From: Aureisphaera galaxeae
GTDB lineage: Bacteria > Bacteroidota > Bacteroidia > Flavobacteriales > Flavobacteriaceae
NCBI RefSeq assembly: GCF_028561275.1
Contig: NZ_JAQQTF010000006.1
Span: forward strand, 248,001-312,000
Direction: 5' to 3'
DNA length: 64,000 nucleotides
The notes under the pieces: generated by a model
What the model was told of the DNA's origin: nothing
Seen by the model: only the letters and a program-made list of their open reading frames with translations
The model's database searches: none
Program-made: the position numbers and the translations under genes
In this document: positions 2,051 through 57,135 of the stretch, piece after piece
How the letters are laid out: every line of letters begins with the position of its first letter
Numbering within the stretch: position 1 is the stretch's first letter

Positions 2051-5000
2051 TTAGAAATCTTCGTCCAAATTTTGAGATAAGGCATTCATGAACTCGTCGT
2101 GCTCTATCTTCGTATCCTCTCCCTTAATTTCCTGACAATAGGAAACAAGGCTTCGGGAATCATCGGAGGTAATAAGTTCAATGAGTTGCAGGAATTGATT
2201 GCTCAACAACTTCATGTCCTCGGGATCGAACAGATCTGAGTTCACGCTTAACGAATATTGCATTGTATCGTCTTTTATTTCTACATAGAAAGTGACATCG
2301 AATTTTGCCGTGGTGTCGTAGTCTACCTCCTCGCCTACCGAAGTTTTTAATTCTACCTCGCTATTGGCATCATGAGTTACTACCAACATCACATCGAAAA
2401 CAGGGTTTCTGGAGAAATCGGCTTCCAGATTTAGATTTTCAACAATGAGATCGAAGGGATATTCATTGTGTTTGTAACCTTCAATCACATTGGTTTTCAC
2501 TTCCGTTAACAACTGATTGAAATCTTTATCTACTTCCAGTTGGGTCCTAAACGGAATGGTATTGATATATACCCCTATCTGATCTTTTAACTTAGGATTG
2601 TTTCTACCCGAAACTGGACTTCCCACCACGATATCGGTTTGAAAGGAATTGTGATATAGCACCATATTGAGTACTGCCAATACTTTCATAAAAGGAGTGA
2701 TCCCTTCTACCCCAGAATGGTTGAAAAATTCACGAATCGTTTCACTCTTAATCGTATTGTTTACCGAATACCCGTTATAGGTTTTTATAGTCGGACGCTC
2801 CTTGGAGAACACAAAGCTCAACTTGGGAACTTCCCCTTTGAACTTCTCGGACCAGTACTGCTGACTACTATTGAATTTTTCTGAAGAAATCTTGTCCAAT
2901 TGCCATACAGAATAGTCCTTATATTGAATCTCCAAAGGCTCTAGATTAGGTGCTATGCCATATTTGTGATAAATATAGAAAGCCTCATATTCTTTGGTCA
3001 ACTGCTCCAAAGACCAGTTGTCCGCGATGATATGGTGCATATTTCGGTAGAACACATATTCGTCTTCCGATTTGCGAATCAAGGCAATCCTGATAAGTGG
3101 ACCTTGTTCTAGATGAAAGGGAACTTCCGAATCGAACTTTACGAAAGTAGCCAGTTCGGCACCGAAATCGGAGGCTCCCCTAAGGTCTATTTTCTGAATA
3201 TCTACCTTCACTTCCGAAGGTTCTAAAATGTATTGATGTATTTCTCCCTCAGCATTCTTTTTAAAGATGGTCCTAAGGGATTCATGACGCTCTATAATGG
3301 ATAGAATTGCCTTGTCGAAGCATGCTTCATCCACTCCCTTCACCTCGTCATAGGCGAACATATTATAGGCGATCGATCTGTTTTTGTTCTGGCTTAACAA
3401 CCATAGTCTTCTTTGCATTAATGAAATGGGATAGCTTTCCATTTCCGGGGCCTTTTCAATGTCGTCCAAAACATCATTCTTTGATGACTTAATAAGCGCT
3501 GCATGCGACTCTAAGGTGGTATTTACAAAGAAGAGGTTGAGTTCCAACTTCACTCCAAAAGTAGACTGATACGTATTGATCAACTTGATCAATTTAATAC
3601 TGTGTCCGCCTAAGTGGAAGAAGTCTTCCTTCACTCCCAGACCTTCACGACCAAACACTTCACTCCAAATGGCTACGCATTGTTCTTCGACCTCATCCCG
3701 AGGTGCCACATATTCTATTTGTTTGGAAGCAGCTTCCTCGAATAAGGTATTCAGTTGTCTTTTATCTACCTTTCCATTTACGGTAAGTGGTATGTTTTCT
3801 ATAGTTACGAATTGCGCCGGAATCATATACTCGGGCAATACTTTTTTAAGGTGTCCTTTAAGTACTTCGTCGGATTCTTCATTCCGATCCACTACAAATG
3901 CTACCAGTTGTAAGGCATCTTGTACTTCTATGGGTAATACGACTGCTTGTTTTAGCATCCCACTACCTACTAAAGTCTGTTCGATCTCTCCCAATTCAAT
4001 TCGGTAGCCACGTATTTTAATTTGGTCGTCTATTCTTCCCAAATACTCTATAGTTCCTTCGGGAGTCCAGCGACCTAAATCGCCTGTTTTATATATGATT
4101 TCCCCAGTGGTGTTCGGATTTTCTATAAAACGTTCCTGCGTAATTTCTTTCCTGTTGAGATATCCTTGCGAAACCCCTGCACCCCCAATGAACAACTCTC
4201 CCGCACTTCCTATGGGTGCTTCCTTACCATCAGTGTCCAAAATCTGAATATCGGTATTGGCAATAGGGCTTCCTATGAGAATACTCTCATCTTCTGGAAA
4301 TACCTCCTGAACTATACATCCAATCGTTGTTTCTGTAGGACCGTATTCGTTGAATAGTTGAATATCCTCATGAATGTCCTTTACGATTCTCACTTGATCG
4401 TGTTTTAATTGCTCCCCGCCGCAAACGATAAGCCTTAATTTGGTCTCGTCTACGTCTATATCCTTCAAAAGGGATAAGTGGGTGGGCGTTAGCTTTAGCG
4501 TATCCACTTCGGGATGTTGTAGGCTTTCGGTAAGTAATTGTATTACGTCCTTGTCGGCTCCACCAATCCATAACTTCTTACCCCTTGTAAGACTGGTAAA
4601 GATGGAAGTCATGGTTAAATCGAAGGATAAAGAGGTAATTAACCCCCAATTCCCCATATTCGGATCCTTGAAATAGTAGTTATTTGCCCACTGAATGTAA
4701 TTGAGGAGGTTGCTATTGTTTATCAAACATCCTTTTGGATTCCCTGTAGAGCCAGAAGTATAAATACAGTAAATAGTGTCTTCGCTATTTACTTCAACAC
4801 CTGGACTTTCGGCGAACTGATTGGCATAAATTTCGGTATCGGACGCGATTAAGGTAGTTGCTTCTTCCAATCCCAGTTCCGATTTCAACGCTTCATTAGT
4901 AATAATAAGCTTAGCGCCACAATCCTGAGCGATATACTGTATGCGGTCTTTGGGATATTCGGTATCGATAGGAACATAATAACCCCCAGACTTTATGATG

Positions 5001-6520
5001 GCCAATACACTAACGATAAACCATTCAGATCTACCCAATAAAATGCAAACTGCATCTCCCTTGCTTACTCCATAGGAACTGATAAGCTCTTGGGCCAGCT
5101 GATTGGATCGTTGATCCAGTTCTGAATAGCTTATCTCCTCATTTCCTATCAGAATCGCAGTGGCTTCAGGTTGTTCCGATACTTGTTTTTGAAACATCTC
5201 CAAAACAGAAGCATAGGCTTCGAAAGTCTTTTCGGTAGCATTCGCCATGGCGATAATATCAGCTTCTAAACTCGATATAGTTTGAGAAGCTTCCGTTTCA
5301 ATACCGAAAACTTGCTTTAATTGTGCTACCACCAATGGTTCCTTAATTCCAGAGAACTTGGAGGTATCAACATATACTTCCAAAGAGAGTGCATCTCCCC
5401 GATCTATGCAGGTCAACTTCACATCGAAAGCATCTACAATGGAATGAAAATCTTCCAAACGTATCGCCGAGTTTCGGGAATTTCTACCATCGATATATTC
5501 AAATACATAATTGAAGAAAGGATCACCTTGATCTCCGTTTCTTCCCAAGTAGAAGTAATCGGACCAAACATCTATACTTTGAAGGCATTGTGCAATTTCA
5601 TTTTCATTATTCGTTCCAGATTCCTTTACAGGTGCCAAGGTAATGGGCAACGGTTTTGAAACCAGACCAAATGTATTATTCAGCTCCTCGTAGGATCTTT
5701 GATAAGGTAAATAACCTACAGTTACTTTGTCTCCTTCGAATTGATGTAGGTAATCGAACAACCTAGCGAACACATAATGCTCTAGGTTACTGCCGACTTT
5801 GTTTGCTTCGGCACTTAACTGTTCGTATTCACTGCCCACAAACGTTTTCAACACTGTGCGTTTTGGCAAAAAATCACCTTTGGGTGTATCGGTAAACGGA
5901 ATAACTGTCTTTCCTAGATTGTATTCGTAGTTTTTCCAAAAATTAACCCCTTCAATCTCGGGTTCTGCTTGTAATTCATTTTGCCAAGCTGAAAAGTTCT
6001 GATATTCCACCACCTCACGCTCTAAACTCACATAAGCGCTTACATCTACCAGTGCTTGTTTCAAATCGTTATAGAACAACAGACTACTGAAGCTATCCGC
6101 CCAAAAGGAAAAGATCCTAACGATGAGAAGCTTTTGGGAATCCTCATTCACATAGCAGAATCGAACGGCAGCATCCTTTGCACTATCGTATGGATACGAC
6201 AAGTACTGATCTGCAACATCATTCGCATGTTTTCCCGCGAATGTTGAAACTTCATGGAAATCCAAACCAGCAGCAATATCCATAAACTGTCTTGGAAATG
6301 CATAACCCGCTTCCTTCATGGTCTTGAACAACAAGGTCTCATTTTTCTTCAAGACTGCTTGAAGTGCAGATTGCACAACTTCGCTTGTTATAGAGGCATC
6401 TAAAGCTATGGTTAACTGATTGAAAAACTGAGACGTATTCTCAGGATTCAATAACCAAAGATTTCTCTGGTTTACAGACAACTCATAAGTATCAACATTA
6501 TTTAAAATAGCATCCTGCAT
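2051..6520 (-). CDS. NRPS subunit Nrp11 (degenerate C*-A-T-C), Asn-type module
   Basis: 1489 aa, ATG start. The N-terminal C-fold domain (residues ~10-430) has FSFWADS near residue 137 where HHxxxDG is expected, so both active-site His are gone and it is unlikely to condense. It is followed by an A domain (~445-940; SGSTG near 587) whose pocket reads DLTKVGEIGK, close to the Asn code DLTKLGEVGK, then a T domain (LGGHS ~968) and a second C domain (~1040-1460) with HHIIADN, G replaced by N but catalytic His and Asp kept. The C-terminus ends in an acidic tail (EHDEF...LDEDF) like that of Nrp4; both precede A-first proteins. A SyrP-like hydroxylase gene lies just upstream, so the C* domain may be a hydroxylase-recruiting interface domain. 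NRPS identity is certain; the interface role is inference. Confidence 0.95.
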   Translation of the reverse strand: MQDAILNNVDTYELSVNQRNLWLLNPENTSQFFNQLTIALDASITSEVVQSALQAVLKKNETLLFKTMKEAGYAFPRQFMDIAAGLDFHEVSTFAGKHANDVADQYLSYPYDSAKDAAVRFCYVNEDSQKLLIVRIFSFWADSFSSLLFYNDLKQALVDVSAYVSLEREVVEYQNFSAWQNELQAEPEIEGVNFWKNYEYNLGKTVIPFTDTPKGDFLPKRTVLKTFVGSEYEQLSAEANKVGSNLEHYVFARLFDYLHQFEGDKVTVGYLPYQRSYEELNNTFGLVSKPLPITLAPVKESGTNNENEIAQCLQSIDVWSDYFYLGRNGDQGDPFFNYVFEYIDGRNSRNSAIRLEDFHSIVDAFDVKLTCIDRGDALSLEVYVDTSKFSGIKEPLVVAQLKQVFGIETEASQTISSLEADIIAMANATEKTFEAYASVLEMFQKQVSEQPEATAILIGNEEISYSELDQRSNQLAQELISSYGVSKGDAVCILLGRSEWFIVSVLAIIKSGGYYVPIDTEYPKDRIQYIAQDCGAKLIITNEALKSELGLEEATTLIASDTEIYANQFAESPGVEVNSEDTIYCIYTSGSTGNPKGCLINNSNLLNYIQWANNYYFKDPNMGNWGLITSLSFDLTMTSIFTSLTRGKKLWIGGADKDVIQLLTESLQHPEVDTLKLTPTHLSLLKDIDVDETKLRLIVCGGEQLKHDQVRIVKDIHEDIQLFNEYGPTETTIGCIVQEVFPEDESILIGSPIANTDIQILDTDGKEAPIGSAGELFIGGAGVSQGYLNRKEITQERFIENPNTTGEIIYKTGDLGRWTPEGTIEYLGRIDDQIKIRGYRIELGEIEQTLVGSGMLKQAVVLPIEVQDALQLVAFVVDRNEESDEVLKGHLKKVLPEYMIPAQFVTIENIPLTVNGKVDKRQLNTLFEEAASKQIEYVAPRDEVEEQCVAIWSEVFGREGLGVKEDFFHLGGHSIKLIKLINTYQSTFGVKLELNLFFVNTTLESHAALIKSSKNDVLDDIEKAPEMESYPISLMQRRLWLLSQNKNRSIAYNMFAYDEVKGVDEACFDKAILSIIERHESLRTIFKKNAEGEIHQYILEPSEVKVDIQKIDLRGASDFGAELATFVKFDSEVPFHLEQGPLIRIALIRKSEDEYVFYRNMHHIIADNWSLEQLTKEYEAFYIYHKYGIAPNLEPLEIQYKDYSVWQLDKISSEKFNSSQQYWSEKFKGEVPKLSFVFSKERPTIKTYNGYSVNNTIKSETIREFFNHSGVEGITPFMKVLAVLNMVLYHNSFQTDIVVGSPVSGRNNPKLKDQIGVYINTIPFRTQLEVDKDFNQLLTEVKTNVIEGYKHNEYPFDLIVENLNLEADFSRNPVFDVMLVVTHDANSEVELKTSVGEEVDYDTTAKFDVTFYVEIKDDTMQYSLSVNSDLFDPEDMKLLSNQFLQLIELITSDDSRSLVSYCQEIKGEDTKIEHDEFMNALSQNLDEDF

Positions 6521-6574
6521 GATTAGTTTCTTTAAAAAATGACGTGAGAATTAGAAATTAGATGGTGGTGTGTA

Positions 6575-6594
6575 CTTCCATTAAAAAATGGAAG
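6575..6594 (-). other. hairpin spanning the hydroxylase stop codon
   Basis: CTTCCATT and AATGGAAG form a perfect 8 bp stem around a 4 nt loop. The stem includes the stop codon of the hydroxylase at 6581-6583. There is no clear U-tract after it, so it is more likely an mRNA 3'-end stabiliser or processing element than a terminator. Confidence 0.4.
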
Positions 6595-7573
6595 CGATGA
6601 TTTTTCTGTCTCCTTTGTATGGATTACGACCATGGGCCATTAACATATTATCCAAGAACAATACATCTCCGGTTTGCCATGGGAATTCGAAAGTGGCTTT
6701 CTTATATGCCTGGCGGATTTCTTCAATCTCTTCTTTCGAAATGGGACTTCCATCGCCGAAATAGGTGTTGTTGGGAAGATCATCATCCGATTCAATAATG
6801 GAAAGAAAATCTTCGTCATAGGTATACTTATTGAAGAAGTATCCGTGGTTGAACCAAACGGTATCTCCCGTATGTGGGTGATCCCAAACAGCCTTTTTGG
6901 TCCAGGTAAGTACCAATTTGTCTTCATCGGCCCAATTGCAGGTAATTCCTTTTTCCGCACAGATCTCTTCTACTTGATTCTTATCTGTGGTTTGAAAAAC
7001 CTCCTGCCATGGCAATCCTAAGGATTTGGTCAAGTTTCGTACGTACTTCACTCCTAAATCCACAAATTTTTGACGGGTAGCATCGCTTAGGTACTGTAAT
7101 ACCTTTCTGTTATCGGCAATTGGTGTTTCTCCTTGCTCTTCTGCAGGCACGATACAACAAAAAACAATGTTGCTCGGGTGATTGGGATCGTAGGAGCTCT
7201 CACTGTGCATATTGATGCTGTACTCACTCGGATAGGTTGTGGTGTGATACACATTATCCCCAACGGCATAGCGTGGTGAAGATCGCATCTTATATTCTAA
7301 AGGCTTGTCTACAAACAATTTGATAAGATCCTGAAACTTAGCAACAGTATCTATCCCAAAACCCCTGAATAAAATTCCTCCTTGAGATCTAAGTTTGGTC
7401 TTGAACTCTTCCCTGTTCTCATCGATCCAAGCTTTTAAGTTCTTTCCCGAACCGGTAGACAAACCTAGTACCGGGAATCCCATTTCTGGTGACATGATAG
7501 AAAAATCCACGGATTTTCCGTTCGCGGCCGTAGGCGCTTTTGTACTTAGTAATCTATTAACTCTACTTGACAT
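6581..7573 (-). CDS. SyrP-like Fe(II)/2-oxoglutarate-dependent hydroxylase (TauD/TfdA superfamily)
   Basis: 330 aa from the ATG at 7571-7573, which follows an A/T-rich leader; an ATG at 7622-7624 would add 17 lysine-rich residues and is less likely. The Fe ligands are visible as HxE (His123, Glu125 in MHSESSY) and a distal His314 in AHGRNPYKGDR, with the following Arg fitting the 2-oxoglutarate salt bridge. HxE rather than HxD is typical of the clavaminate synthase/AsnO/SyrP branch, which hydroxylates the beta-carbon of amino acids, in SyrP's case while they are loaded on a carrier domain. It sits between Nrp10 and Nrp11. Nrp11 pairs an Asn-type A domain with a dead C-like domain, so beta-hydroxylation of Asn on Nrp11 is the best guess. 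Substrate is inferred. Confidence 0.88.
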   Translation of the reverse strand: MSSRVNRLLSTKAPTAANGKSVDFSIMSPEMGFPVLGLSTGSGKNLKAWIDENREEFKTKLRSQGGILFRGFGIDTVAKFQDLIKLFVDKPLEYKMRSSPRYAVGDNVYHTTTYPSEYSINMHSESSYDPNHPSNIVFCCIVPAEEQGETPIADNRKVLQYLSDATRQKFVDLGVKYVRNLTKSLGLPWQEVFQTTDKNQVEEICAEKGITCNWADEDKLVLTWTKKAVWDHPHTGDTVWFNHGYFFNKYTYDEDFLSIIESDDDLPNNTYFGDGSPISKEEIEEIRQAYKKATFEFPWQTGDVLFLDNMLMAHGRNPYKGDRKIIASIF

Positions 7574-7708: not shown

Positions 7709-10700
7709 CTAGGCTGTAAAGGCCTTAAGTCGTTGTAAATTTTTCGACTTCAAGTTCGATTTGGTCTGCTTTTTTAGGTCGATATCCCTTATAGGAAGGT
7801 TGGGCTTCTGCAAAAGCTCTGAGGCTATATTCCCAAAGTCTTTCAGCAAAAGTGCTATGGTATTTCTAGTATAGATATCCGTATTAAACTGCATTGTTAA
7901 CTGTATAAAACCCTCGTACAACTTGGCAGTGATCAAGATGTCTAATTTTGGAGCCGAATGTCCCTTGTAAAGGATCTCATCGAAAGGAATCAATGCCGTA
8001 TCCAGTTCAAAAGACTTTCCTACTTTGTCCTCATATGTAATCATTACGTCATAAATCGGATTCCTATTTGAGGGTGTGCTTAATTCTAAGTCATCTATCA
8101 GCCAATCGAAATAGTATTTTTGGTGTTCAAAACTTTCTAGCGTTGTCCTACGTACTTGTTCAAATATCTCTTGGAACGAATCGTTTTCATTGACCTGGTT
8201 TCGTACTACCACAGTATTGAAGTAGTTCCCTACCTGATTTTCGAACTCACTTCGGTACCTTCCTAAGGATCGAGTGCCTAAAAGTAGGTCGTTAGATTGG
8301 CAGTATTTCTGAAACAAAATGTTCCACACAGTTAGAATCCCAATGAATGCTGTACTTCTCCTTTCTTTAGAGAAATCTACCAGTGCTTTCGAAATACGTG
8401 GTGAAAGGTTTAGTTCCACCAACTGCCCATTATATGTTTTGCTCACCGGTCTTGTTTTTACTTCAGGCAATTCGAATAAGGGAAGGTCTCCAGATAGTCT
8501 TTCCATCCAGAATGCTCTGCTTTCTTCAAATGCCTTTCCAAAACGCTGGGTTTTATGCCAAACGGCAAAATCTTTGTATTGTATCTGCAATGCTGGCATA
8601 TTGGGTGCTTTTCCCTGTTCATATGCCTCATAGAAATGCATGATATTGTTGTGTAGTATATTGAGCGAATGGGCATCGCATATCAATTGATGCGCTCTCA
8701 TATACAGTAAACTTGTATCCTTTGATAGTTGAAAATAGATGACTTTCAACAAAGGGCCTTCTTCAAAATTAAACGGACCCTCGCTCTCCTTGTCTATATG
8801 CAGTTGCATTTCTGAATACGGACTCACACTTTCACTTAGGTTGTGTTTCACAAGAGATACTCTATGTTTTCCTTTGGGTAGGATCCATTGTTTCAATACT
8901 CCAGATTCGTCCTTACCAAAAACCGTTCTGGTAATTTCATGACGATCTACTGTTGCTTGTAATGCTTTATTCAATAATTCAGAATCATACGTTCCTTCCA
9001 ACTCCACCGTGAAGGTCATATCATAGGCAATGGCATCTTTATCCAATTCCGACAATAGATATACCTTGTTTTGAGCTTCCGATAATTCATAATTGGTAGC
9101 TGAAGGTAATGTTGGAATCGTTTCGTTCAAATTGCTGTCCAAGGAAGCGATCAATTCTGCATGTTGTGCAATTGTGGTATGCTCGAACATGTGTGTTAAG
9201 TTTACCTGGACGTTAAATTGTTCCTGATACTTCAGTACCAACTGATTCATGATCAAACTATGCCCTCCCAATAAAAATATGTTTTCGTCGGTTCCTATAT
9301 TTGATTGATCCAACACCTCTTTCCAGATTTCCAAAATAGCTCCTTCCAAAGGGGTTGTAGCTGCTTTTTTTGAATGCTCATCAGTAATGAGTGATTGAGC
9401 ATATTGGTTCAATCTCGCTGTATCGATCTTCCCGTTAGAATTGGTGGGAAGCGCTTCCATGTGTTCGAAATGCAATCCAACCATCTCATAGGCCGATAAT
9501 TTTGCTAAGCATTGATTTCGTACTTCCGAAATTGTCGTGTTAACCGATGCGTAAAAGCAAATGATTACAGATGCTATATCTTCGCGATACGCTACTACGC
9601 ATTTTACTGCGGTTACTGCTTCAAGTTCTAATAGTGTCGATTCTATGGCATTCAAATCGCATCGTACTCCATTTATCTTCAGCAATCCATCTTTTCTGCC
9701 TAAAATCCGAACGGTTCCATCGGGATTAAAGGCTCCGTAGTCGCCCGTATCGTAAATAATGTCCAATTCCTCGTTCAAAGGATTCTGAATGAACTTCTGT
9801 TGGGTCAATTCCGAATCGCGATAATATCCCTTGGATAAATACGGCGTCTTGATATAAATGGTGCCTTCTTCGTTAATGCCGCAGCGCTCGTTCTTTTCAT
9901 TTAGAATTAGAATCTCAGTTTCCGAAATAGGTTTCCCCACACTGATAACATCGGTGAGATCACCATTCAACTTTTCTTCCACCCTATGAAAGGTCTTCAC
10001 CAAGGTCGACTCTGTGGCACCATATAGGTTAATGATTTGCGTGTTATTGCCAAATCGGTCTCGCCAATTCATTACATCCCGTGCATATAGCTTTTCCCCA
10101 GCCAATAATAGATAGCGTAATTTGGGGAACTCCATCACCATTGTTTCCTTCTTGTTCAGTAAAAATCGAATCATGGTGGGAATGGAATGCAGAATGGTAA
10201 TTCCTTCTGCCATCAACCACTTCTTAGCCAATGTTGCGTGTTCCTTTGTTTCTTTCTTTGGAATACAAATACATGCACCCTGCGTCAACGCCAAAAAAAT
10301 ATCCCGTAGGGAAGCATCGAAAGAAAGAGACGTAAACTGTCCTATTCTATCTTCTGAAGTGACATTCAATTCTCTCGCTTCCCATTCAATAAAATGAGCT
10401 AAACTTTCATGGCACCCCAATACAGCTTTGGGTTTCCCGGTAGAGCCGGAAGTAAAGAATATATAGTTAGCATCTTTTCCGTCAATGGAAAGATGTAAGT
10501 TTTCATTGCTTACTGCTGTAGTAGTCTCGACACTTACATATCCCTCATTTTCATTCTTCAAGATAGACCACATCAACTCTTTGTTCTCATCCAAGGATGT
10601 TACGATCAGAAAAGGAATGGTATATTCAAATTCTTGATTCCATCCATATACAATGTCTAAATTCTCTTGTGAAGTAACCAATACCTTGGGGTGGATCTTT

Positions 10701-10993
10701 TCGTAAAGCACACTCCAATGATTGGCTTTGTATTTTTCATCCAAGGGCAAATACACCTGCTTTGCCTTGAAGATCCCCAGCAATGCTTGAATTTGGATTT
10801 CGGCCTCCTTACAGAAGCAACCAACCACTTCCCCATCGCCTACACCTAGCTGTCTCAATACCCTTGCCAATACATTGGCATTGGCATTAATTGCTGAATA
10901 AGTGAAGGTATTCGTAGCTGTCGCCAACGCCACAGCGTTAGGGCTTTTGCGCACGATATTTTCGAAGATTGTATGTACAACCTTGTGCTTCAT
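7709..10993 (-). CDS. NRPS subunit Nrp10 (A-T-C*)
   Basis: 1094 aa, ATG start. It opens directly with an A domain (~1-540; FFTSGSTGKPKAV near residue 181, YDTGD, NGKID) with pocket DARHLALLVK, identical to Nrp12 and close to Nrp5-A1 (DAHHLALCLK). The T domain LGGHS lies near 573. The C-terminal C domain (~630-1070) has HQLICDA near 768 in place of HHxxxDG: the catalytic second His is Gln and the Gly is Ala, exactly as in Nrp9. The tail is basic (KSNLKSKNLQRLKAFTA) and homologous to those of Nrp8 and Nrp9. The next NRPS protein, Nrp11, opens with another defective C domain, so two C-fold domains meet at this junction. Monomer unknown; Asp235 is present, so an alpha-amino acid is expected. Confidence 0.95.
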   Translation of the reverse strand: MKHKVVHTIFENIVRKSPNAVALATATNTFTYSAINANANVLARVLRQLGVGDGEVVGCFCKEAEIQIQALLGIFKAKQVYLPLDEKYKANHWSVLYEKIHPKVLVTSQENLDIVYGWNQEFEYTIPFLIVTSLDENKELMWSILKNENEGYVSVETTTAVSNENLHLSIDGKDANYIFFTSGSTGKPKAVLGCHESLAHFIEWEARELNVTSEDRIGQFTSLSFDASLRDIFLALTQGACICIPKKETKEHATLAKKWLMAEGITILHSIPTMIRFLLNKKETMVMEFPKLRYLLLAGEKLYARDVMNWRDRFGNNTQIINLYGATESTLVKTFHRVEEKLNGDLTDVISVGKPISETEILILNEKNERCGINEEGTIYIKTPYLSKGYYRDSELTQQKFIQNPLNEELDIIYDTGDYGAFNPDGTVRILGRKDGLLKINGVRCDLNAIESTLLELEAVTAVKCVVAYREDIASVIICFYASVNTTISEVRNQCLAKLSAYEMVGLHFEHMEALPTNSNGKIDTARLNQYAQSLITDEHSKKAATTPLEGAILEIWKEVLDQSNIGTDENIFLLGGHSLIMNQLVLKYQEQFNVQVNLTHMFEHTTIAQHAELIASLDSNLNETIPTLPSATNYELSEAQNKVYLLSELDKDAIAYDMTFTVELEGTYDSELLNKALQATVDRHEITRTVFGKDESGVLKQWILPKGKHRVSLVKHNLSESVSPYSEMQLHIDKESEGPFNFEEGPLLKVIYFQLSKDTSLLYMRAHQLICDAHSLNILHNNIMHFYEAYEQGKAPNMPALQIQYKDFAVWHKTQRFGKAFEESRAFWMERLSGDLPLFELPEVKTRPVSKTYNGQLVELNLSPRISKALVDFSKERRSTAFIGILTVWNILFQKYCQSNDLLLGTRSLGRYRSEFENQVGNYFNTVVVRNQVNENDSFQEIFEQVRRTTLESFEHQKYYFDWLIDDLELSTPSNRNPIYDVMITYEDKVGKSFELDTALIPFDEILYKGHSAPKLDILITAKLYEGFIQLTMQFNTDIYTRNTIALLLKDFGNIASELLQKPNLPIRDIDLKKQTKSNLKSKNLQRLKAFTA

Positions 10994-11024: not shown

Positions 11025-14000
11025 CTAACTCTTAAATGATCGTAATCGAGAAAGGTTCTTCGATTTTAGGTTTTGTTTGATTTCATTTTTTAAGTCGACA
11101 TCTTTTATGCTCGCTTCCGGTGCATCCGATAAGGCCATAGTCAGATTTTTGAAATCTTTCAGCATACGCTTCATGGTCTCAGTGCGATAGATGTCGGTAT
11201 TAAATTGTAAATCGGTTCTAAGGTATCCTTGATGCAATTCTACAGTAAGCAGCATATCCAATTTGGGTCGCGAGGTCCCTTTGTTTATCACTTCATCATA
11301 AACAACCCCAGTGCTTAAAGCCGCTTTTGTTGCATCTGCGGTTTTGTCTTCATAGGTGATCATGATGTCGTAGATGGGATTTCTATTAGAGCTCGTATTG
11401 ATCTCCAAATCATCGATCAACCAATCGAAATAATAGTTCTGATTTTCAAAACTCTCCAACATATTGGCCTTCACCTGTTGGAATACCCCCTTTAGGCTAT
11501 CACTTTCCTGCAAGGCGCTTCTTAGTACAACCGTATTTAAATAATTTCCTATCTGATTGATGAATTCAGTTCGGTATCTCCCCAAGGATCTAGTTGCAAT
11601 AGGTAAATCCTTTATTCCCGTGTATTTGTAAAAAAGGATGTTCCATAACGTCATTACGGTCATGAAAACGGTTCCGTTTTCTGCTAAACTGAAATCCGTG
11701 ATTCTTTGGGTGATCTCAGTATTCAGGTTCATTTCCAACAGCAAACCATTGTGGGTTTTAATGCTGGGACGTTGTTTCCCTTCAGGCAACTCGAATACAG
11801 GAAGCTCTCCAGACAATTGATTCAACCAAAATGATTTGCTCTTCGTTATGCCTTTATCCGTTCGTTGCTGTTTATGCCATAAGGCGTAATCCTTGTATTG
11901 AATGGACAACTCAGGAATATTCGGCGTTTTATCTTGGCTAAAGGCTTCATAATATGCCATGAGGTCACGGTGCAATATCTTTAGGGAATGTGCATCGCTA
12001 ATCATTTGATGCGTCCTTATATACAACAGTGTTTTCCCGTTGGGTAACTGAAACAAAAACACTCGCAACAATGGGCCTTCGGCAAAATCAAAAGGGGTTT
12101 CTGCGTCTTTGCTTATATGCAAATTGGCTTCCCGATACGGTCCTGCACTTTGGCTTATGTCTATAGTGACTAACTTTATCGAGTGCTCGTCCTCGCCTAG
12201 AATCCACTGCTTTAATTTACCTGCGGCATCTTTTTTAAACCGCGTTCTCAAAATTTCATGACGGGCCACCACAGCTTGCAAAGCCTTGTTGAAAGTTATC
12301 GGACAAATTTCGTCGTCCAATTCTTCCATGAATTCCATATCGTACTCAATGGAAGCTTTGTCCATTTCCGTAAGCAGGTACAACTTGTTTTGGGCATCGG
12401 AAGGTTCGTAATTCTCTGAAGGCTCCAAAAGCACAATCCCTGTATCCGAACTTTTATCCAGTGATGCAATCAATTCGGCATGAGCTGCAATGGAAGTATG
12501 CTCAAAGAGTTGTTTTAAACTTACTTGAACATCGAACAGCTTCTTATAGCGAATAATGAGGATGTTCATCTTCAGGCTATGACCACCCAAGTGAATGAAA
12601 TCGTCCGTTACCCCGATATTTTCTTTCTTTAGTACACTTTCCCAAATGGTGACCAGTTTTTGCTCCAACTCATTTTGCGGTGCTACATAGGTCACTCCAC
12701 TATCCATGGTCTGATCCCATGGGTCGGGCAATTGTTTTTTATCCGTTTTTCCGTTTTCGGTGAGTGGAAAGCGATCCAATTGAACGAAATGCTGTGGAAT
12801 CATATAATCTGGAAGGAATTCCTCAAGAAACGTTCGTAGTCCCAAATCATTCTGCGTTTCTTGTGACATAAGATAAGCGACAATGACCATTTCATTGGCA
12901 TTGTTTTCCCTCGCTACGATTTCCACTTTTGAAATAGCCTCGTTTTGTAATAGGGCGTTTTCAATTTCGCCAAGGTCTATTCGGTAACCGCGTATTTTAA
13001 TCTGATTGTCTTTCCTTCCGAGAATTTCGATATTCCCGTTGGCCAAGCGTCGTCCCAAATCGCCCGTTTTATAGAGTCTTTCTCCCTTATTCCATGGATT
13101 CTCCATGAACTTTTCCGCTGTCAATTGCGGTGCATATAGATAACCGCGACAGACTGGAACTCCAGCTGTGTAGATCTCTCCCACAGTACCTTCGGGACAT
13201 AGGGTTTCATTTTCATCGACAATATAGATGTGCGTATGTTGAATGGGCCGACCAATGAGCACCTTACTGTCCTCAATTTTTTCGTTCATTCGGTAACAGG
13301 TAGTTACATCCGAACATTCGGTCTGACCATAAGTGTTGATGATTTCAATTTCAGGGTTTAAGTCAAAAAATACATTCACATAACTCGGTGTAAGTCGCTC
13401 GCCAGTTAGGATCAGTTTTCTTAAATGCTTCAGTTTGGATTCATGTCCAATCGCAAAAACGTTATTCAGTTGCGAAGGGATCACCTCTAATAGGCTTACT
13501 TCATTGGCAATGGTTTTATCCAACAGTAGTGAAATATCCTGCAATTCTTCCAAAGTGGTAATAATAACAGTCCCTCCCACGATTAAAGGAGCCCACAGCT
13601 GCCAAATGCTTCCTACGAAGTAGAATTTCGAAGTGTGGCAAATGGAAACGCCTTCTTTCAAATCCAATAAGGCAATCTTGCTGTACAGGTGATTTACAAT
13701 CCCTTTATTTTCCAGCATACAGCCCTTGGGCGTTCCAGTGGACCCCGAGGTGTACACGATATAGGCCAATTTTGAAGGAACCAGGTCAACATCATCTTCA
13801 GCATATTGATCCATCGTGCGAAAGAAAGTATCTATATCTTCTTGGCTCAATACGAATTTGAAGTTCTCCCGAATGGCCTCGAATCGTTCCTTTGGTGTCT
13901 TGGTATCTAAGGGTGAAGGACATCCTCCAACCTTTAGAATAGCCAATAGTACTATGGCGTACCATTCGGAGCGGTCCAATTGAATCCCAAAAATGTCCTC

Positions 14001-14231
14001 TGGTTGAACCTCATAGACTTCATTGATATAGCGTGCCAACTGATTGCTCTTTCTATTCAGCTCGGCATAGGTGATATGTGTATTTCCGAAACTAAGGGCA
14101 ATGGCATCTGGAGTACGCTCCACTTGTGCTAAAACCAATTCCACGATCGACATGGACAATGGGTCCTTGCTTTCTTGGAGTGCTGTGGTTGCAGCATTGT
14201 TAGATTCGTATTTTGTAGTAAGCAAATTCAC
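11025..14231 (-). CDS. NRPS subunit Nrp9 (A-T-C*), A domain lacks Asp235
   Basis: 1068 aa from a GTG at 14229-14231, 11 nt after the preceding stop. The first ~26 residues resemble an inter-domain linker, so GTG is kept, though an ATG at 14151-14153 would place the A domain exactly at the N-terminus. The A4 motif reads FVGSIW, so the Asp235 that binds the alpha-amino group in most A domains is Val; the pocket reads VGWEITTDVK. Val at this position is known for beta-alanine-type A domains, so a beta- or omega-amino acid or other non-alpha substrate is likely. T domain LGGHS near 546. The terminal C domain has HQMISDA near 740, lacking the catalytic His. Basic tail (NLKSKNLSRLRSFKS). It lies just after an aminotransferase/monooxygenase pair that may make its monomer. 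Confidence 0.95.
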   Translation of the reverse strand: MNLLTTKYESNNAATTALQESKDPLSMSIVELVLAQVERTPDAIALSFGNTHITYAELNRKSNQLARYINEVYEVQPEDIFGIQLDRSEWYAIVLLAILKVGGCPSPLDTKTPKERFEAIRENFKFVLSQEDIDTFFRTMDQYAEDDVDLVPSKLAYIVYTSGSTGTPKGCMLENKGIVNHLYSKIALLDLKEGVSICHTSKFYFVGSIWQLWAPLIVGGTVIITTLEELQDISLLLDKTIANEVSLLEVIPSQLNNVFAIGHESKLKHLRKLILTGERLTPSYVNVFFDLNPEIEIINTYGQTECSDVTTCYRMNEKIEDSKVLIGRPIQHTHIYIVDENETLCPEGTVGEIYTAGVPVCRGYLYAPQLTAEKFMENPWNKGERLYKTGDLGRRLANGNIEILGRKDNQIKIRGYRIDLGEIENALLQNEAISKVEIVARENNANEMVIVAYLMSQETQNDLGLRTFLEEFLPDYMIPQHFVQLDRFPLTENGKTDKKQLPDPWDQTMDSGVTYVAPQNELEQKLVTIWESVLKKENIGVTDDFIHLGGHSLKMNILIIRYKKLFDVQVSLKQLFEHTSIAAHAELIASLDKSSDTGIVLLEPSENYEPSDAQNKLYLLTEMDKASIEYDMEFMEELDDEICPITFNKALQAVVARHEILRTRFKKDAAGKLKQWILGEDEHSIKLVTIDISQSAGPYREANLHISKDAETPFDFAEGPLLRVFLFQLPNGKTLLYIRTHQMISDAHSLKILHRDLMAYYEAFSQDKTPNIPELSIQYKDYALWHKQQRTDKGITKSKSFWLNQLSGELPVFELPEGKQRPSIKTHNGLLLEMNLNTEITQRITDFSLAENGTVFMTVMTLWNILFYKYTGIKDLPIATRSLGRYRTEFINQIGNYLNTVVLRSALQESDSLKGVFQQVKANMLESFENQNYYFDWLIDDLEINTSSNRNPIYDIMITYEDKTADATKAALSTGVVYDEVINKGTSRPKLDMLLTVELHQGYLRTDLQFNTDIYRTETMKRMLKDFKNLTMALSDAPEASIKDVDLKNEIKQNLKSKNLSRLRSFKS

Positions 14232-29682: not shown

Positions 29683-29698
29683 CCTAAGTCTCCTTAGG
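29683..29698 (-). other. hairpin spanning the JmjC gene stop codon
   Basis: CCTAAG and CTTAGG are perfect inverted repeats with a 4 nt loop; the stop codon of the oxygenase gene (29694-29696) lies inside the stem. No U-tract follows. It belongs to a set of small hairpins at gene borders in this locus. Confidence 0.35.
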
Positions 29699-30608
29699 CG
29701 ATAAAGGCGAAATAGCTCTTATAGAACTTGAATAGGTATTTGGATGGAATGTTTAGGCACAATCCTAGTGCTAAAATGCTGTTGTAATAGATGTTCGGGA
29801 AAGATGCACCTCCTTTAATGGATGCCCACAGCCCTTTAAGTACCGTCTTCTTGGTATGCCAGTCGATATTGAATGAAATCGAATTGGTGATGCTCTTTAC
29901 CTGGTGAAATGCTCCAGCTGGCATATACAGAATGTCCCCTCCCGTTACTTGGAATCGGTACACCTTGGCATCCTTGAATTTAGGATATTTCACATAGTCC
30001 GGCTTGTCTGGGTTTACACGTGACCATTTCCAATCATAGCGATAGCATTTGTCCATGTCTTCGGCCAATATCAAGGTAAACTCTTTTACCCCCGCTACTT
30101 GAAAGAACAGGTTGTTGGTAAGTAAAGTATCGATATGCATTGGGGTTTTATTTCTTGAGGTTCCGATAAAGAAACAGCAATAGTTCCACCATTTGTCCGC
30201 ATACCATTTCGGGAATAGCTGCAATGGAAATGGAGCCACATCATCTGCCAGATCTGGCATTACTTGAAACATTGGGAAATCATGCAGATAGTGTGTAGGA
30301 TCTTCCGTTTTATCGGAATATTCATATTCCTGCATCAGGGCCACATACTCAGAGAGTTTCATGCTTCGCATGTCCCCTTTTTTAATGTTTCCTTTCTTGG
30401 CTAGAATCTTCTGGTCATGATCGAGATTGCTAAAATACTGGTTACCCCAGATGTGTTTAGCAGGCCAATCGTCCATTAATCCTTTCAGAATTACGGGCCT
30501 ATTCTTGCTCACATATTCTTCATAGAATTTCTCTCTTGTAATACCGTACTCGACTGCGATTTCCGTGTCGACGGCTACTCCTGTCTGAATTAAAATGTTA
30601 TTTTCCAT
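29694..30608 (-). CDS. JmjC / cupin-8 family Fe(II)/2-oxoglutarate oxygenase
   Basis: 304 aa from the ATG at 30606-30608. The frame can be extended upstream only to a TTG at 30696-30698 and the added 30 residues look non-coding. Fe ligands are visible as HxD (His158, Asp160 in MHIDTLL) and distal His235 in GAFHQVKS, inside the small-barrel context RPVILKGLMDDWPA near the N-terminus and GGDILYMPAG near the end, as in JmjC-like cupin-8 hydroxylases. The C-terminal ~25 residues are hydrophobic and aromatic. The family hydroxylates proteins, peptides or small molecules. Lying between the DUF2807 gene and Nrp7, it may oxidise a monomer or the peptide, giving a third oxygenase of this chemistry in the locus. 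Substrate unknown. Confidence 0.85.
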   Translation of the reverse strand: MENNILIQTGVAVDTEIAVEYGITREKFYEEYVSKNRPVILKGLMDDWPAKHIWGNQYFSNLDHDQKILAKKGNIKKGDMRSMKLSEYVALMQEYEYSDKTEDPTHYLHDFPMFQVMPDLADDVAPFPLQLFPKWYADKWWNYCCFFIGTSRNKTPMHIDTLLTNNLFFQVAGVKEFTLILAEDMDKCYRYDWKWSRVNPDKPDYVKYPKFKDAKVYRFQVTGGDILYMPAGAFHQVKSITNSISFNIDWHTKKTVLKGLWASIKGGASFPNIYYNSILALGLCLNIPSKYLFKFYKSYFAFIA

Positions 30609-30739
30609 ATCCTTAATTTCTAATGGGTTAGTATATCTACTTGCGTTTCGACTTATGTGAAGAAAGGCATGAATTGTCCCGCTGGAATGCGCAGACAATC
30701 CACTTAGGGGTTATTAAATTTCTTGAATGAATGTGGGGT

Positions 30740-31432
30740 TTACTTTACTTGCTTTACCGAAGAATCTCCAGAAGTGAATTTGGCATTCAACTTTGCATTT
30801 CCTTTGTATTTTAGTTTGCTATCGCTGCTCGCTTTTACGTTAATGGTTTTGTTCACCGTAAGATGGGCTGTACTATCTTCAGATAAATGGGCATCCAAGC
30901 TTCCTACCGTCAACTCGTAGTTCTTCAACTTGCTATCGTCCGCAAGCTTCAGGTTGAGGTACTCTATATACCCAGATATCTCTCCTTTTGAGTCATCCGC
31001 AAATTGCATTTCGAACTCCTGTACGTTTACGATCCCTTTGAAAGCGGAATCTTGAGAGAGCTTTACTTTAGCCTTTTGGGAGTGAAGCTCGGTTTCTAAT
31101 GTAAGGGTGCAATCATTGGCTGCTGAGAACTTGGAGAAAGGCTTGCAATGAACATATACATTGGTTGTCTCATCTCCTTTTACTACCAAATTCTTTTTCT
31201 TATAAATGATCAATTTATTATCCAAATTTTCTACCCGAATTAATTCCTGTAGATTTTCATTGGCTTCAATGACTATTTGCTGCTTACTTTCAGAAAAGGT
31301 TACGAATACATTTATGTCATTAGCGACTTCCAAAGTGTTGAAATCCGTAAAGGCTATCTGCCTTTTGGTCACTTCAGAGTTCTTTATATGGGTAAAAGCT
31401 TTGCTTTTTTTAAATAATGTTTTAAGTCTCAT
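30740..31432 (-). CDS. head GIN / DUF2807-domain protein
   Basis: 230 aa, ATG start. Residues ~25-225 match the pattern of DUF2807 (head GIN) proteins: FNTLEVANDINVFVTFSESKQQIVIEANENL, then repeated beta-strand units with ADDSK, SEDS, SSDSK and SGDSS turns, which suggests a right-handed beta-helix. Most family members in Bacteroidota are exported or lipoproteins, but this N-terminus (MRLKTLFKKSKAFTHI) has no hydrophobic signal segment or lipobox, so it looks cytoplasmic unless a different start exists. It lies between the racemase and JmjC genes. Function unknown; a scaffold or accessory role in biosynthesis would be speculation. Confidence 0.8.
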   Translation of the reverse strand: MRLKTLFKKSKAFTHIKNSEVTKRQIAFTDFNTLEVANDINVFVTFSESKQQIVIEANENLQELIRVENLDNKLIIYKKKNLVVKGDETTNVYVHCKPFSKFSAANDCTLTLETELHSQKAKVKLSQDSAFKGIVNVQEFEMQFADDSKGEISGYIEYLNLKLADDSKLKNYELTVGSLDAHLSEDSTAHLTVNKTINVKASSDSKLKYKGNAKLNAKFTSGDSSVKQVK

Positions 31433-37038: not shown

Positions 37039-40000
37039 TTATATTTTGAGGGTTTTGGCTCTCTTTTCTTGGTTTTGAAGTTGACTCGCCTTTAGGATTA
37101 AATCAATCTCATTGGCTATGAAGTGAACATTCGGACTATCGAATAACATCGAAATATTTAGCGTAAGATTGAATATGCTGTTGATGCTGTTCAGTACTTT
37201 AAGAAGCTTGATGGAGTTCATTCCCAAATCGAAGAAATTGTCGTGCGTTCCAATGACATGGGCATTTCTATCCAAAACACTGGCTACAATCTCTACGAGC
37301 TTCTCTTCCAATTCATTTTCCGGAGCCACATATTCAACTCCACTGGAGACCTCCGTATCTGAAGGCTCTGGAAGTGCGGCATAATCTACTTTACCGTTGC
37401 TGGTTAGCGGAATTTCATCCACTGCTATAAAGTAATCGGGAAGCATATAGGCCGGTAGGTAATACGATAAATACAGTCGTAGTTTTCCTAGATCCAATTC
37501 CTGATCGGCAACGAAATAAACAGCCAGTTCCAACTCACTCTCCTTGTTCTCCACTGTAGTCACCACGGCCGATTTAATTTCTTGCCTTTTCTTTAGGTAA
37601 AATTCTATTTCGGCCAACTCTATACGGTATCCGCGAATCTTTACTTGTTCATCCAATCTACCCAGATACTCCATATTTCCACACGGCAACCATCTTCCCA
37701 AATCTCCTGTTCTATAGAGTTTCTCTCCTGCTGCAAAAGGACTGGGTACAAATTTGGAATCTGTAAGCTCTTTGTTATTCAGGTATTCCATCGCCAATTG
37801 CGATCCGCCGATGTAAATTTCACCGGTAACGCCAACAGGCAATAAGGCATCTTCTTTCATAATGTACGCCTGGGTATTGCTTGTGGGTTTCCCAATTAAA
37901 ATCTCACCTTCATCTTCTGAAGTAATTCGCTTGGCGATACAACCTACAGTAGACTCTGTCGGTCCGTATTCATTCCAAATCACACTGTTGTTTCCAAAAC
38001 AAGTAAACAACTTAGCTACGGAATTTTTGGATAACTGCTCGCCTCCAAGAATGAATACACGTTTCTTCTGGGTGTCCATTCCAGATTCTTTAGTTCGGAA
38101 GTCTACGAGTACATCCAGGTGAGATGGCGTGAGCTTAATGACATCGAATTCTTTTCTTGCCACAAGCTCCAACGCTTCCACATCACTTTTAAATTCCGGG
38201 ATGATCTCTATGCTTCCACCCGTAACCAAGGGCGTAAAAATGCTGGTTATCGTTAAATCGAAAGAAACAGAGGTCACCAAAATGAATCGTAAGGATTCTC
38301 GGTCAGTGTAGGTTTCGCTGGCGTACTGAATATAGTTAGTAAGCGCGTCACGCGATATAAGCACTCCTTTGGGCCTACCTGTTGTCCCCGACGTATAAAT
38401 ACAATAAGCGGGCTGCTCATTTACATAAGGTACTTCTGGTGCATCCCAAGGATATTGATCGAATGGGAAATGCGACAGATCTACCGTGGTTATCGATTCG
38501 AACTTCGCTGCATTCGATTCACTGCAAATGACCAATGAGGCCTTGGTATCATCCAATATATAATTTACCCGATCCTGTGGGAAGTTAGCCGCAATGGGCA
38601 CAAAAGCGTTCCCCGATTTTAGGATTCCTAGAATGGCTACGATCAACTCTGGGGATCTGTCAATACAAATCGGAATGAGCATTTCTTCCAAGCCTTCTTG
38701 TGCAAGGTAGTGTGCCAGTTGATTCGATTTACGATCCAACGTTCCGTAGCTCACTTCCTCTCCATTATATGTCAATGCAATGGCATCGGGATTTCGGCGT
38801 ACCTGTGTTTCGAATAAATCCAATATCTGGTCTTCTCCAAAATCTACTTGAGTATCGTTAAACTCCGTGAGTAGAAGGTTGGTCTCTTCTTGCGATAAAT
38901 AGTCAATTTCACCAATCTTCGCTTCGGGTGCTTCAAGAACTGCGTTTACCAATTGTTGGAAGTGATCCAATAGTCCTATAATACGCTCCTTCTCATAAAT
39001 GGCCGTGTTGTAAACGATTTGGAAGTTCAACGATCCACCTACTTCCTGAAGTTCTATCTCCAAGTCGAATTTGGACGTGGCTACGCCTCGATCTACTATG
39101 GTGCCATATGACTCCCCTTTTGTGAAGCGACGATTTTCTGAAGCCACATCATTTTGAAGAACGATAAGCACATCGAAAATGGCGCTTCTACTGGCATCTC
39201 TTATAATGTTCAAATCCTCTGCCAGTCGATCGTAAGGATACATCTGGTGATTGAACGATGCAATGGTATTTTCTTTAAGTCTCTCAAAAAAGTCATTAAA
39301 ACTTTCGGAAGGATTCACTGTATTTCTATGGATCAGTGTATTGACATAAAATCCTATCTGATCCTTAAGATCGATATGATCCCGCCCTTCCACTGGGGAA
39401 CCAATAATAATATCGGTTTGCTGGGTATACTTGTGGAACAATAGTTTCCAAAGCGATAGTATTCCCATGAACAGGGTACCTCCACGCTCCGAGCAATAAT
39501 CTTTAAGTTTCGTTGTCGCATCTGGCGTTAGTGAAGTGGCCAAACAATGTCCACCAAAATCGAACGCCAAGGGACGCACTTTACTACTTGGCAGATCTAG
39601 AAATGGTAATTCTCCTGCCAAATGTTGTTTCCAGAAGGACTGGTGCTCCTTGAAAGATTCACTTTCCAGTTGTTGTAACTGCCAAGCTGCATAGTCCTTA
39701 TACTGAATCTTTAGAGCGGGTAATTTCGGTTCCTGTCCTGTTCGATAGGCCTCGTAAGCCGTCATGACATCCCTAGAAAGTAGTTCTTTGGATTTTCCAT
39801 CACTAATAATGTGATGCATATTGTAATGGAATATATATTCGTTTTCAGACAGTTGTATCAATCCCATGCGAAGCAATGGACCTGTTTCCAAATCGAATGG
39901 AATCTGAACATCTGCAGCAATGTGTTGTTTGGCTAATTCATTGGCATTTTCCAAACCTTGATAATCCTGATAGTCGATGGAAAAAGCCAAGTCTTCCATA

Positions 40001-42291: not shown

Positions 42292-43221
42292 TTAGGACAT
42301 GGAAACCAAAACCAATCGATCTCCCGTAAACGAGTTTCTACCATGGCAAACCCGTTCGTTGTCCAGAATAAGTAGTTCGTTGGTGTTCCATTTCGGAGCC
42401 ACTGTCAATGAATCGATAGTCGTAACGATTTCTTCAATGATTTCTACGTCTATGGGAGATCCGTCTCCATAGGTTACGTACATAGGATAGTCTAAAGGGG
42501 ATTCGTACACCGACTGAATTACCTCATAAATCTCATCGCCCAAATGACAGGGATGGAAATGTTCAATTTGGTTGAACCAAACATCTTCTCCAGTATCCGG
42601 ATGCTTATTTAGTCCATGGCGGGATTGTACAATTCGTAAAGAATTATCGGCCTTCCAAGTAAAGTCGATTTCCGAAGCTTTTAGATAAGCTTCAATCTCT
42701 TCTTTGTTAGTGGTTTCATAGGTGTCTTGCCAAGAATTTCCAAAGAATCCATCACCCCCGTGAAGATTCCGGATGTACTTAATTCCCTTGGTTTTAATGT
42801 CATTTACAATGGTGGGGTTCATTTTGTTCAAAATCTCCTTGCTATCCGCCAGTAAAGTTTCTCCCCCAGTTTCAGAAACCGTGATACAGCTTAGGAAAAG
42901 TCTTTTAGGCCATGAAGCAGAATAGGACATCTCATTGTGCATGGTAATGATTTGAGACTTGTCGTATTCGGTAGACGTGTAGACATGGTTTGAAAGTTTC
43001 TTCCTTGGCGAATTTCCATTCACGTAATTCAGGAATTTGCTAGACAAAGCAGCGGTAATGGCTTCGAAATCTTCGGTAGAATTAATCGCTACATTTTTAA
43101 ACTTTAGTGCTCCGTATTTGGACAGTTCCTCGTCTATTTTCTGTTCGTTCTCTTTGTAATATGCAATAAACTCCTGTGGACTTTTTTGCTCACTCAGTGC
43201 TATTTCAAATGGTAAGGTCAT
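42292..43221 (-). CDS. SyrP-like Fe(II)/2-oxoglutarate-dependent hydroxylase (TauD/TfdA superfamily)
   Basis: 309 aa from the ATG at 43219-43221, which is preceded by an A-rich leader. An ATG at 43324-43326 would add 35 residues with a CTKCRKCR stretch; the core family begins after it, so the shorter form is preferred. Fe ligands: His95 and Glu97 (MHNEMSY) and His293 (CHGRNSFTGDR), with GETLLADS and YGDGSPID as in SyrP-like enzymes. It is a diverged homologue of the hydroxylase at 6581-7573. It lies between the aminomutase-like gene and Nrp5, whose second A domain is Asn-type. Beta-hydroxylation of a carrier-bound residue is the best guess; which module it serves is not shown. Confidence 0.87.
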   Translation of the reverse strand: MTLPFEIALSEQKSPQEFIAYYKENEQKIDEELSKYGALKFKNVAINSTEDFEAITAALSSKFLNYVNGNSPRKKLSNHVYTSTEYDKSQIITMHNEMSYSASWPKRLFLSCITVSETGGETLLADSKEILNKMNPTIVNDIKTKGIKYIRNLHGGDGFFGNSWQDTYETTNKEEIEAYLKASEIDFTWKADNSLRIVQSRHGLNKHPDTGEDVWFNQIEHFHPCHLGDEIYEVIQSVYESPLDYPMYVTYGDGSPIDVEIIEEIVTTIDSLTVAPKWNTNELLILDNERVCHGRNSFTGDRLVLVSMS

Positions 43222-43337
43222 AACATTGTTTTTGGTTATATGATTCTTCTCGCCAGAACGACGGTTACATTCGGTAGTATTCTGTGCCTTGTTTCTGCAC
43301 TTTCTGCATTTTGTACAAGCATTCATGACTCATTTGC

Positions 43338-44630: not shown

Positions 44631-44750
44631 TTTATTTTGAATTTTTTGAATCAATATTGATTTTGCCGCTATATACCCACCAAGTTGGGGCATCGTCATC
44701 TTCCCTGTCTAAGCGCTGGGTGTTTAAAATGTGTAGTATTGAAGGTTGAA

Positions 44751-57104: not shown

Positions 57105-57135
57105 CTTGCGAATGATGCTTTTGTGCAATGGTTGT

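Follow-up and report, generated by a model that had tools for sequence, protein, structure and literature searches.

The 64,000-nucleotide stretch of the Aureisphaera galaxeae genome analysed here (contig NZ_JAQQTF010000006.1, positions 248,001 to 312,000; G000:C16:248001-312000 of a 4.59 Mb genome, hereafter the window) is taken up by a nonribosomal peptide synthetase (NRPS) cluster on the minus strand. The N-terminal domain of its protein Nrp11, here termed C*, is probably an interface-type domain that helps to present carrier-loaded Asn to an adjacent TauD-family dioxygenase for β-hydroxylation; we place the probability of this reading at roughly three in four. Near the cluster end, transcription runs from Nrp10 through the TauD dioxygenase and Nrp11 to the adenylation (A)–carrier (T) start of the next protein. 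Interface (I) domains were reportedly described by Reitz et al. in 2019 in synthetases of β-hydroxy-Asp/His siderophores; they have a condensation (C) fold, lack the HHxxxDG motif, stand alongside a TauD-family hydroxylase and lie ahead of the A domain for the residue concerned, with a separate C domain upstream. Such domains bind the hydroxylase and are required for the hydroxylation.

In the mechanism we propose, C* would have given up catalysis while keeping the condensation fold, and would dock the TauD dioxygenase, which would add a β-hydroxyl to Asn on the carrier and not to free Asn; the product would contain β-hydroxy-Asn. Because the terminal C domain of Nrp10 would make the peptide bond into the Nrp11 module, the order would read C / TauD / I–A(Asn)–T–C.

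Motif, fold and phylogenetic placement of C*

An earlier note on this DNA had singled out a range (5230-7573) that spans nearly all of C* and the hydroxylase gene, reading there FSFWADS for HHxxxDG in the N-terminal C-fold of Nrp11, an adjacent SyrP-like hydroxylase and an Asn-like A-domain pocket. Alignment of 18 C-fold domains from the window bears out the motif reading, with C* the sole domain to carry neither His (one is kept in HQLICDA and HQMISDA, the motifs of two others), while a Pfam TauD match (Table 1) and the substrate code given below confirm the other two. Scored with a profile of 11 C domains of the window, C* reaches 33.8 bits versus 104.7–672.5 bits for the other 17, of which 11 are profile members and the six outside the profile score 104.7, 145.3, 183.1, 282.5, 490.5 and 619.0 bits; the next-lowest scorer (104.7 bits) lies ahead of another C domain and groups with epimerisation (E) domains. 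Since its score falls so far below those of the other window C domains, C* is far diverged and not the result of a one-residue loss. Two relatives (domain identity 42% and 38%) carry FSLWADT and FSLWADS, each adjoining a close relative of the hydroxylase, so the motif change is not a chance one. Across 18 aligned interface-type domains, D142 of the motif region is conserved in all, and the HH pair of interface-type domains is replaced by FS, PA, PS, SS, SA, SP or LP.

The condensation fold is predicted by an AlphaFold2 (AF2) model of C* (pLDDT 78.5, pTM 0.81), built on 18 aligned rows drawn from the window and from two further loci; a model from only two sequences (pLDDT 42.2) was discarded. 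Foldseek searches with the model placed C domains on top (LgrA, TMq ~0.73), and the top 50 matches included the teicoplanin X domain, alone and with OxyB, at TMq 0.69–0.70. Because the alignment rows are mostly ordinary C domains, the model supports fold and not function.

C-fold rows were kept by length (300–650 aa), leaving 169 domains, and in a FastTree phylogeny of these, 22 of the 23 flagged domains lacking the HH pair (HH-less domains) fell into one group. An IQ-TREE mixture-model tree of 70 rows united all 20 interface-type rows (Shimodaira–Hasegawa-like approximate likelihood ratio test, SH-aLRT, 98), including CcsI and CcsL from the cyanochelin cluster, such that C* groups with domains of known β-hydroxy-Asp modules. 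Long-branch rows, grouped under 12 name prefixes and including the interface-like G783 and Janthinobacterium, were left out of this tree, and ordinary C domains from outside the window were sampled at random. Here the domains of the window, of G001 (same genus) and of G669 join those of G595, G554 and a Balneolales contig (SH-aLRT 95). HH-less domains from Methylocystis (both trees) and Janthinobacterium (FastTree only) also fall in the group, with no published proteobacterial reference sequence among the rows.

The earlier note had held that placement among ordinary LCL domains with a recent active-site loss would refute its proposal. C* instead groups with HH-less domains that follow TauD genes, and forcing three Flavobacteriaceae domains together with eight Bacteroidota LCL domains lowered the log-likelihood by 49.9 (approximately unbiased test, p-AU 1.1e-5; 29 hand-picked rows), whereby a clade with these LCL domains was rejected. 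The profile comparison it had suggested points the same way: the same three domains match cyanobacterial interface-type domains at E 7.6e-38 and other interface-type domains at 2.5e-30, versus 7.4e-18 for variant C, 1.1e-13 for window LCL, 1e-9 for DCL, 3.9e-9 for cyanobacterial LCL and 0.0084 for E domains. In a single-profile ranking, places 1–17 are all interface-type and the first intact C domain stands at 18, followed by Balneolales at 19, Methylocystis at 20 and G554 at 36 (behind 16 intact C domains), with G783 and Janthinobacterium outside the best 40; the far members of the group therefore rest on tree and gene order more than on pairwise score.

Relatives of C* and their TauD neighbours

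In the whole-genome alignment searches, no more than four candidates were scored in any one genome; further cases may therefore lie hidden where NRPS genes are plentiful, and the rarity of C* in Bacteroidota describes what turned up and is no census. Among 99 genomes (its own included) there was one other full-length homologue, in G001 (42%, E 3.5e-105), with two more weak matches; 397 family genomes added only a weak match in G225, and 395 phylum genomes added G669 (E 2.4e-115), G595 (1e-25), G673 (7.5e-23) and then matches of 1e-10 to 1e-6. G554 and G783 were reached only through the hydroxylase. Readable domains at the weaker-match loci carry HHxxxD, except for HTILYDG (G225) and SHILVDG (G095), and three G029 loci have no domain long enough for motif reading. 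Of two contig scans, one returned no matches and the other two loci, on a G001 contig and on the Balneolales contig. An 18-row profile (A4) was rejected as unspecific, with ordinary C domains of the same genome reaching 233.6 bits; in 395 class genomes it exceeded 300 bits solely for sequences already in the profile, and because its best match on an Eleftheria plasmid scored 233.6 bits, no interface domain is claimed there.

The link between C* and TauD was tested with least bias by using C* as the sole query against 72,556 plasmids (E ≤ 1e-5); this returned 11 records, all cyanobacterial, with 20 places. In seven of these records, examined at the best place, the match is without exception the NRPS domain that comes first behind TauD, whether TauD is a separate gene or fused. 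Three of the seven have one gene in between, which the annotation calls a methyltransferase in Trichormus and Gloeothece and hypothetical in Nostoc carneum. The motifs of the seven domains are PALCADS (three), PAICADT, PALCGDG, PALCADT and SALCADV. On the cyanochelin B plasmid (Leptolyngbya sp. NIES-3755, AP017310), CcsI and CcsL each start with an HH-less domain and have a hydroxylase ahead. CcsL is BAU16061, and β-hydroxy-Asp has been assigned to the CcsI and CcsL modules (PMC12628792); from gene order, we infer that BAU16012 is CcsI.

The same arrangement is found beyond the cyanobacteria. In G001 and G669, a TauD (72% and 60% identical to that of the window) lies directly ahead of the HH-less domain, and the pairing is kept in G595, G554 and the Balneolales contig. 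Among later plasmids, an HH-less domain follows a fused TauD in Variovorax (NPLAADR) and Bradyrhizobium (SALRADA), and two TauDs precede a C domain reading HHIAGDY. In the loci collected before these plasmids, the next domain after 38 TauDs is HH-less in 21, a C domain with HH in three, an A domain in six, another TauD in two and nothing in range in six, although 21/38 is no unbiased rate because resemblance to the hydroxylase or to C* was what brought in the majority of loci. Conversely, 21 of 23 flagged HH-less domains come after a TauD, the exceptions being G673 (TauD ~20 kb off) and a DNLLVDA domain that is probably the heterocyclisation domain of the Leptolyngbya cluster. A C domain, a TauD, an inactive C-like domain, A and T thus follow one another repeatedly in Bacteroidota, cyanobacteria and proteobacteria. 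The HH-less domain stands ahead of an A domain with a separate C upstream in the window and its relatives, and that upstream C keeps HHxxxD in 19 of the 21 loci (the window has HQLICDA; G554 is not readable).

H140, E142, H331 and R340, which we take to be the catalytic residues of the window TauD, are conserved in four aligned TauDs. The six Bacteroidota/Balneolales TauDs beside interface domains unite (SH-aLRT 87 with 38 rows; bootstrap 99 and SH-aLRT 98 with 23 rows), and the way they branch is consistent with the tree of the I domains. Distances among I domains and among hydroxylases correlate (Mantel r 0.68, 20 pairs, 0/2000 permutations), also within 11 cyanobacterial pairs (0.43, 0/2000) and the six Bacteroidota/Balneolales pairs (0.76, 2/2000); joint inheritance of entire clusters could by itself give rise to this correlation.

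Substrate codes and a co-varying hydroxylase position

The Nrp11 A domain carries the code DLTKCGEIGK, which we take to be an ordinary Asn code, E at A-domain position 322 presumably marking Asn and H marking Asp. In this respect the module departs from the Asp/His substrates of siderophore interface domains. The relatives read DLTKCGEVGK (G001, G669), DLTKVGEVGK (G595, Balneolales) and DLTKAGEVGK (G554), such that all six pairs of the window hydroxylase branch have the E-type, Asn-like code, compared with the cyanochelin Asp codes DLTKLGHVGK (CcsI) and DLTKFGHVGK (CcsL). A scan of hydroxylase columns in nine Asn-coded and ten Asp-coded pairs found position 203 to be G in 9/9 versus D in 10/10, position 260 H in 8/9 versus Q in 10/10, and position 263 F in 8/9 versus L in 10/10. 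Four later pairs also fit at position 203: D with an Asp code in Variovorax, Azospirillum oryzae and Vibrio harveyi, and S with an Asn code in Bradyrhizobium. Overall, the position agrees in 23/23 pairs (D in 13/13 Asp-coded, G or S in 10/10 Asn-coded), although in four of the 13 Asp pairs a C domain with HH, and not an HH-less domain, lies between TauD and A. Trichormus, Nostoc carneum, Methylocystis, G783, Vibrio europaeus and others were set aside from these 23, having unassigned or other codes or not lying directly ahead of a module.

The earlier note had suggested a Bacteroidota interface-type domain acting on Asn, and the grouping of C*, the uniform E-type code of its branch and a hydroxylase position that follows the A-domain code lend support to this at the level of sequence. 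We also lean, with less assurance, towards a wider view in which interface domains are a general recruiting platform beyond siderophore Asp, with Asn-coded pairs in Bacteroidota, cyanobacteria and Bradyrhizobium where A domain and hydroxylase changed together (322 H to E; 203 D to G or S). An Asp-coded pair has an E322-coded pair nearby in Nostoc sp. UHCC 0926, Nostoc sp. NIES-3756 and Leptolyngbya boryana (in the last, the E322 code is DATKIGEVGK), so matched partners would need to be told apart in the same cell.

Several points weigh against these interpretations. The agreement at position 203 amounts to three changes on the tree, or two to three independent pairs (sign test p 0.5), at a position picked from a scan of every column over 19 pairs. 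At positions 260 and 263 the rule breaks down in Bradyrhizobium, where an Asn code goes with Q and L, and in part also in Nostoc NIES-3756. The TauD of Vibrio europaeus, which is not module-adjacent and was not counted, has D203, and the only DxTK-E code in that locus is DATKIGEVGK. G783 and Methylocystis hold loci with TauD and an HH-less domain whose codes are neither Asp nor Asn, and the Trichormus/Nostoc carneum code has no assigned substrate. An HH-less domain is not a necessary companion of TauDs of this family, as those that precede an HH-bearing C or an A domain show, and the G673 HH-less domain lies far from its TauD. C* also evolves faster than the hydroxylase (42% versus 72% identity between sister clusters). 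Finally, the C domain of Nrp10, on which bond formation into the module would depend, lacks the second His of HHxxxDG, which is usually held to be catalytic.

Alternatives, gene neighbourhood and known systems

The best-surviving alternative, which we nevertheless regard as unlikely, takes C* for a C domain that has decayed or has only a structural role, with the TauD acting elsewhere, on another module or on T-bound Asn without C*. Two further TauD genes in the cluster have no HH-less domain after them, so TauDs here can work without one, and the fast evolution of C* would suit decay. However, its pairing with TauD is kept in five other loci with compatible tree shapes, recent decay from local LCL domains was rejected, and the cyanochelin cluster has the same order. 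Rather less probable is hydroxylation of free Asn by an AsnO-like TauD, with the A domain taking 3-hydroxy-Asn and C* incidental. Free-Asn hydroxylases that feed NRPSs do exist, namely AsnO and OcfG (PMC8471579), but sequence kinship speaks against this type here: the closest TauD relatives all precede HH-less domains, the cyanochelin B hydroxylases are more distant kin, and of the three sequences found in a Protein Data Bank search with the hydroxylase (E ≤ 0.01) none is named a free-Asn hydroxylase. The presumed ordinary Asn code likewise argues against it. Least probable is that C* keeps chemistry of its own, such as an unusual condensation needed beside the HQLICDA domain of Nrp10, since, despite the invariant D142, HH is replaced in many ways and the HH-less domain is present regardless in the 19 loci with an HHxxxD domain ahead of TauD.

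Table 1. Positions (window coordinates) of the Nrp11 module and its neighbours.
Feature	Position	Strand	Description or basis
Nrp10	7709-10993	minus	A-T-C
Nrp11	2051-6520	minus	open reading frame of 1489 aa, C*-A-T-C
Next protein, A-T start	3-1901	minus	
Nrp11 C* (HH-less condensation-fold, interface-type)	5216..6520	minus	aa 1-435; profile, tree placement, AF2 pLDDT 78.5, Foldseek C-fold
FSFWADS replacing HHxxxDG in C*	6092..6112	minus	aa 137-143; alignment to other window C domains
SyrP/TauD-like Fe(II)/2-oxoglutarate dioxygenase, 347 aa	6581..7624	minus	Pfam TauD PF02668 E 3.2e-41; alignment
Nrp11 A domain, code DLTKCGEIGK (Asn-like)	3755..5194	minus	motif-anchored alignment
Nrp11 carrier (T) domain	3485..3688	minus	predicted hydroxylation site of loaded Asn
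Nrp11 C-terminal condensation domain, HHIIADN	2123..3439	minus	
Nrp10 terminal C domain, motif HQLICDA	7760..9097	minus	bond-forming C expected just ahead of C*-A-T module

The remainder of the cluster offers further observations. The second TauD (42292-43326; 74% identical in G001) lies beside a weak radical S-adenosylmethionine protein match (43338-44699) and is followed directly by an A domain with code DAHHLGLCLK. The third lies outside the window (G000:C16:238849-239787) and adjoins a TonB-dependent/outer membrane protein β-barrel receptor (G000:C16:239887-242370), with a thioesterase, an ABC transporter and a phosphopantetheinyl transferase further along. The C domains that end Nrp10 and the 11025-14231 protein (HQLICDA and HQMISDA, both without the second His) form a pair with support 100 in the 70-row tree, and the Bradyrhizobium locus L117 holds a C domain with HQIISDG. 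Two variant C domains stand on either side of one gene border: HHIIGDF (52437-53750) at the end of 52416-57128 and HHAIVDR (51075-52325) at the start of 44751-52331; the same places read HHIIGDF and HHAIIDR in G001, and G669 has a stand-alone HHVVADR relative. The proteins at 3-1901, 7709-10993 and 37039-42120 start with an A domain without C, with codes DARHLGLLVK or DAHHLGLCLK. A Cupin_8 protein (29694-30698) and a DUF2807 protein (30740-31432) also lie within the cluster, and a small protein of the G001 cluster (348745-349407) looks similar by eye.

The locus allows one to ask directly how a hydroxylase finds one Asn carrier within a large synthetase, and supplies a compact hydroxylase and C*-A-T protein with which to do so. 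It also yields a candidate sequence rule separating Asn from Asp interface modules, together with natural Asp/Asn pairs within one cyanobacterium, and would aid structure prediction for clusters in which such a domain might pass for an extra bond-forming domain. β-Hydroxy-Asn occurs in antibiotics and lipopeptides, among them laxaphycin B, hypeptin and the flavipulchrins (PMC12819058, PMC8471579). Interface domains are named by antiSMASH 8 (PMC12230676), and I is listed as a C subtype (PMC10212144); in searches of open-access papers on interface domains, hydroxyasparagine, Pedobacter lipopeptides, cyanochelin, hypeptin and laxaphycin, we found no text tying an interface domain to Asn. An eLife 2026 paper names hydroxylase families and mentions several unreported clades, of which the window hydroxylase/interface group could be one.

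Among known systems, the interface domains of siderophore synthetases share with C* the fold, the motif loss, the TauD neighbour and the place ahead of an A domain; C* differs in its Asn-like code, in place of Asp, and in its Flavobacteriaceae host. Its motif, FSxWAD[ST], likewise contrasts with the PALCAD type of the cyanobacterial domains compared here. The CcsI and CcsL modules of cyanochelin B come close to the window in their order, C-TauD-I-A-T, and in their HH-less domains, which belong to one group with C*, but have Asp codes, β-hydroxy-Asp in the product and D-Q-L at hydroxylase positions 203/260/263, versus G-H-F in the window. HynE (hypeptin) and PflD (flavipulchrin) are TauD enzymes for β-hydroxy-Asn, the role predicted for the window TauD, and HynE is reported to act on the T domain (PMC12819058). 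Hydroxylation of Asn on a carrier is thus already known. The glycopeptide X domain is C-like in fold, recruits P450 enzymes and sits in the last module. The X domain of teicoplanin (4tx2/4tx3) binds an oxygenase, as in the OxyB complex, and the C* model superposes on it; identity of C* with an X domain was rejected, since C* has a TauD and not a P450 as its neighbour and occupies an N-terminal place ahead of an A domain.

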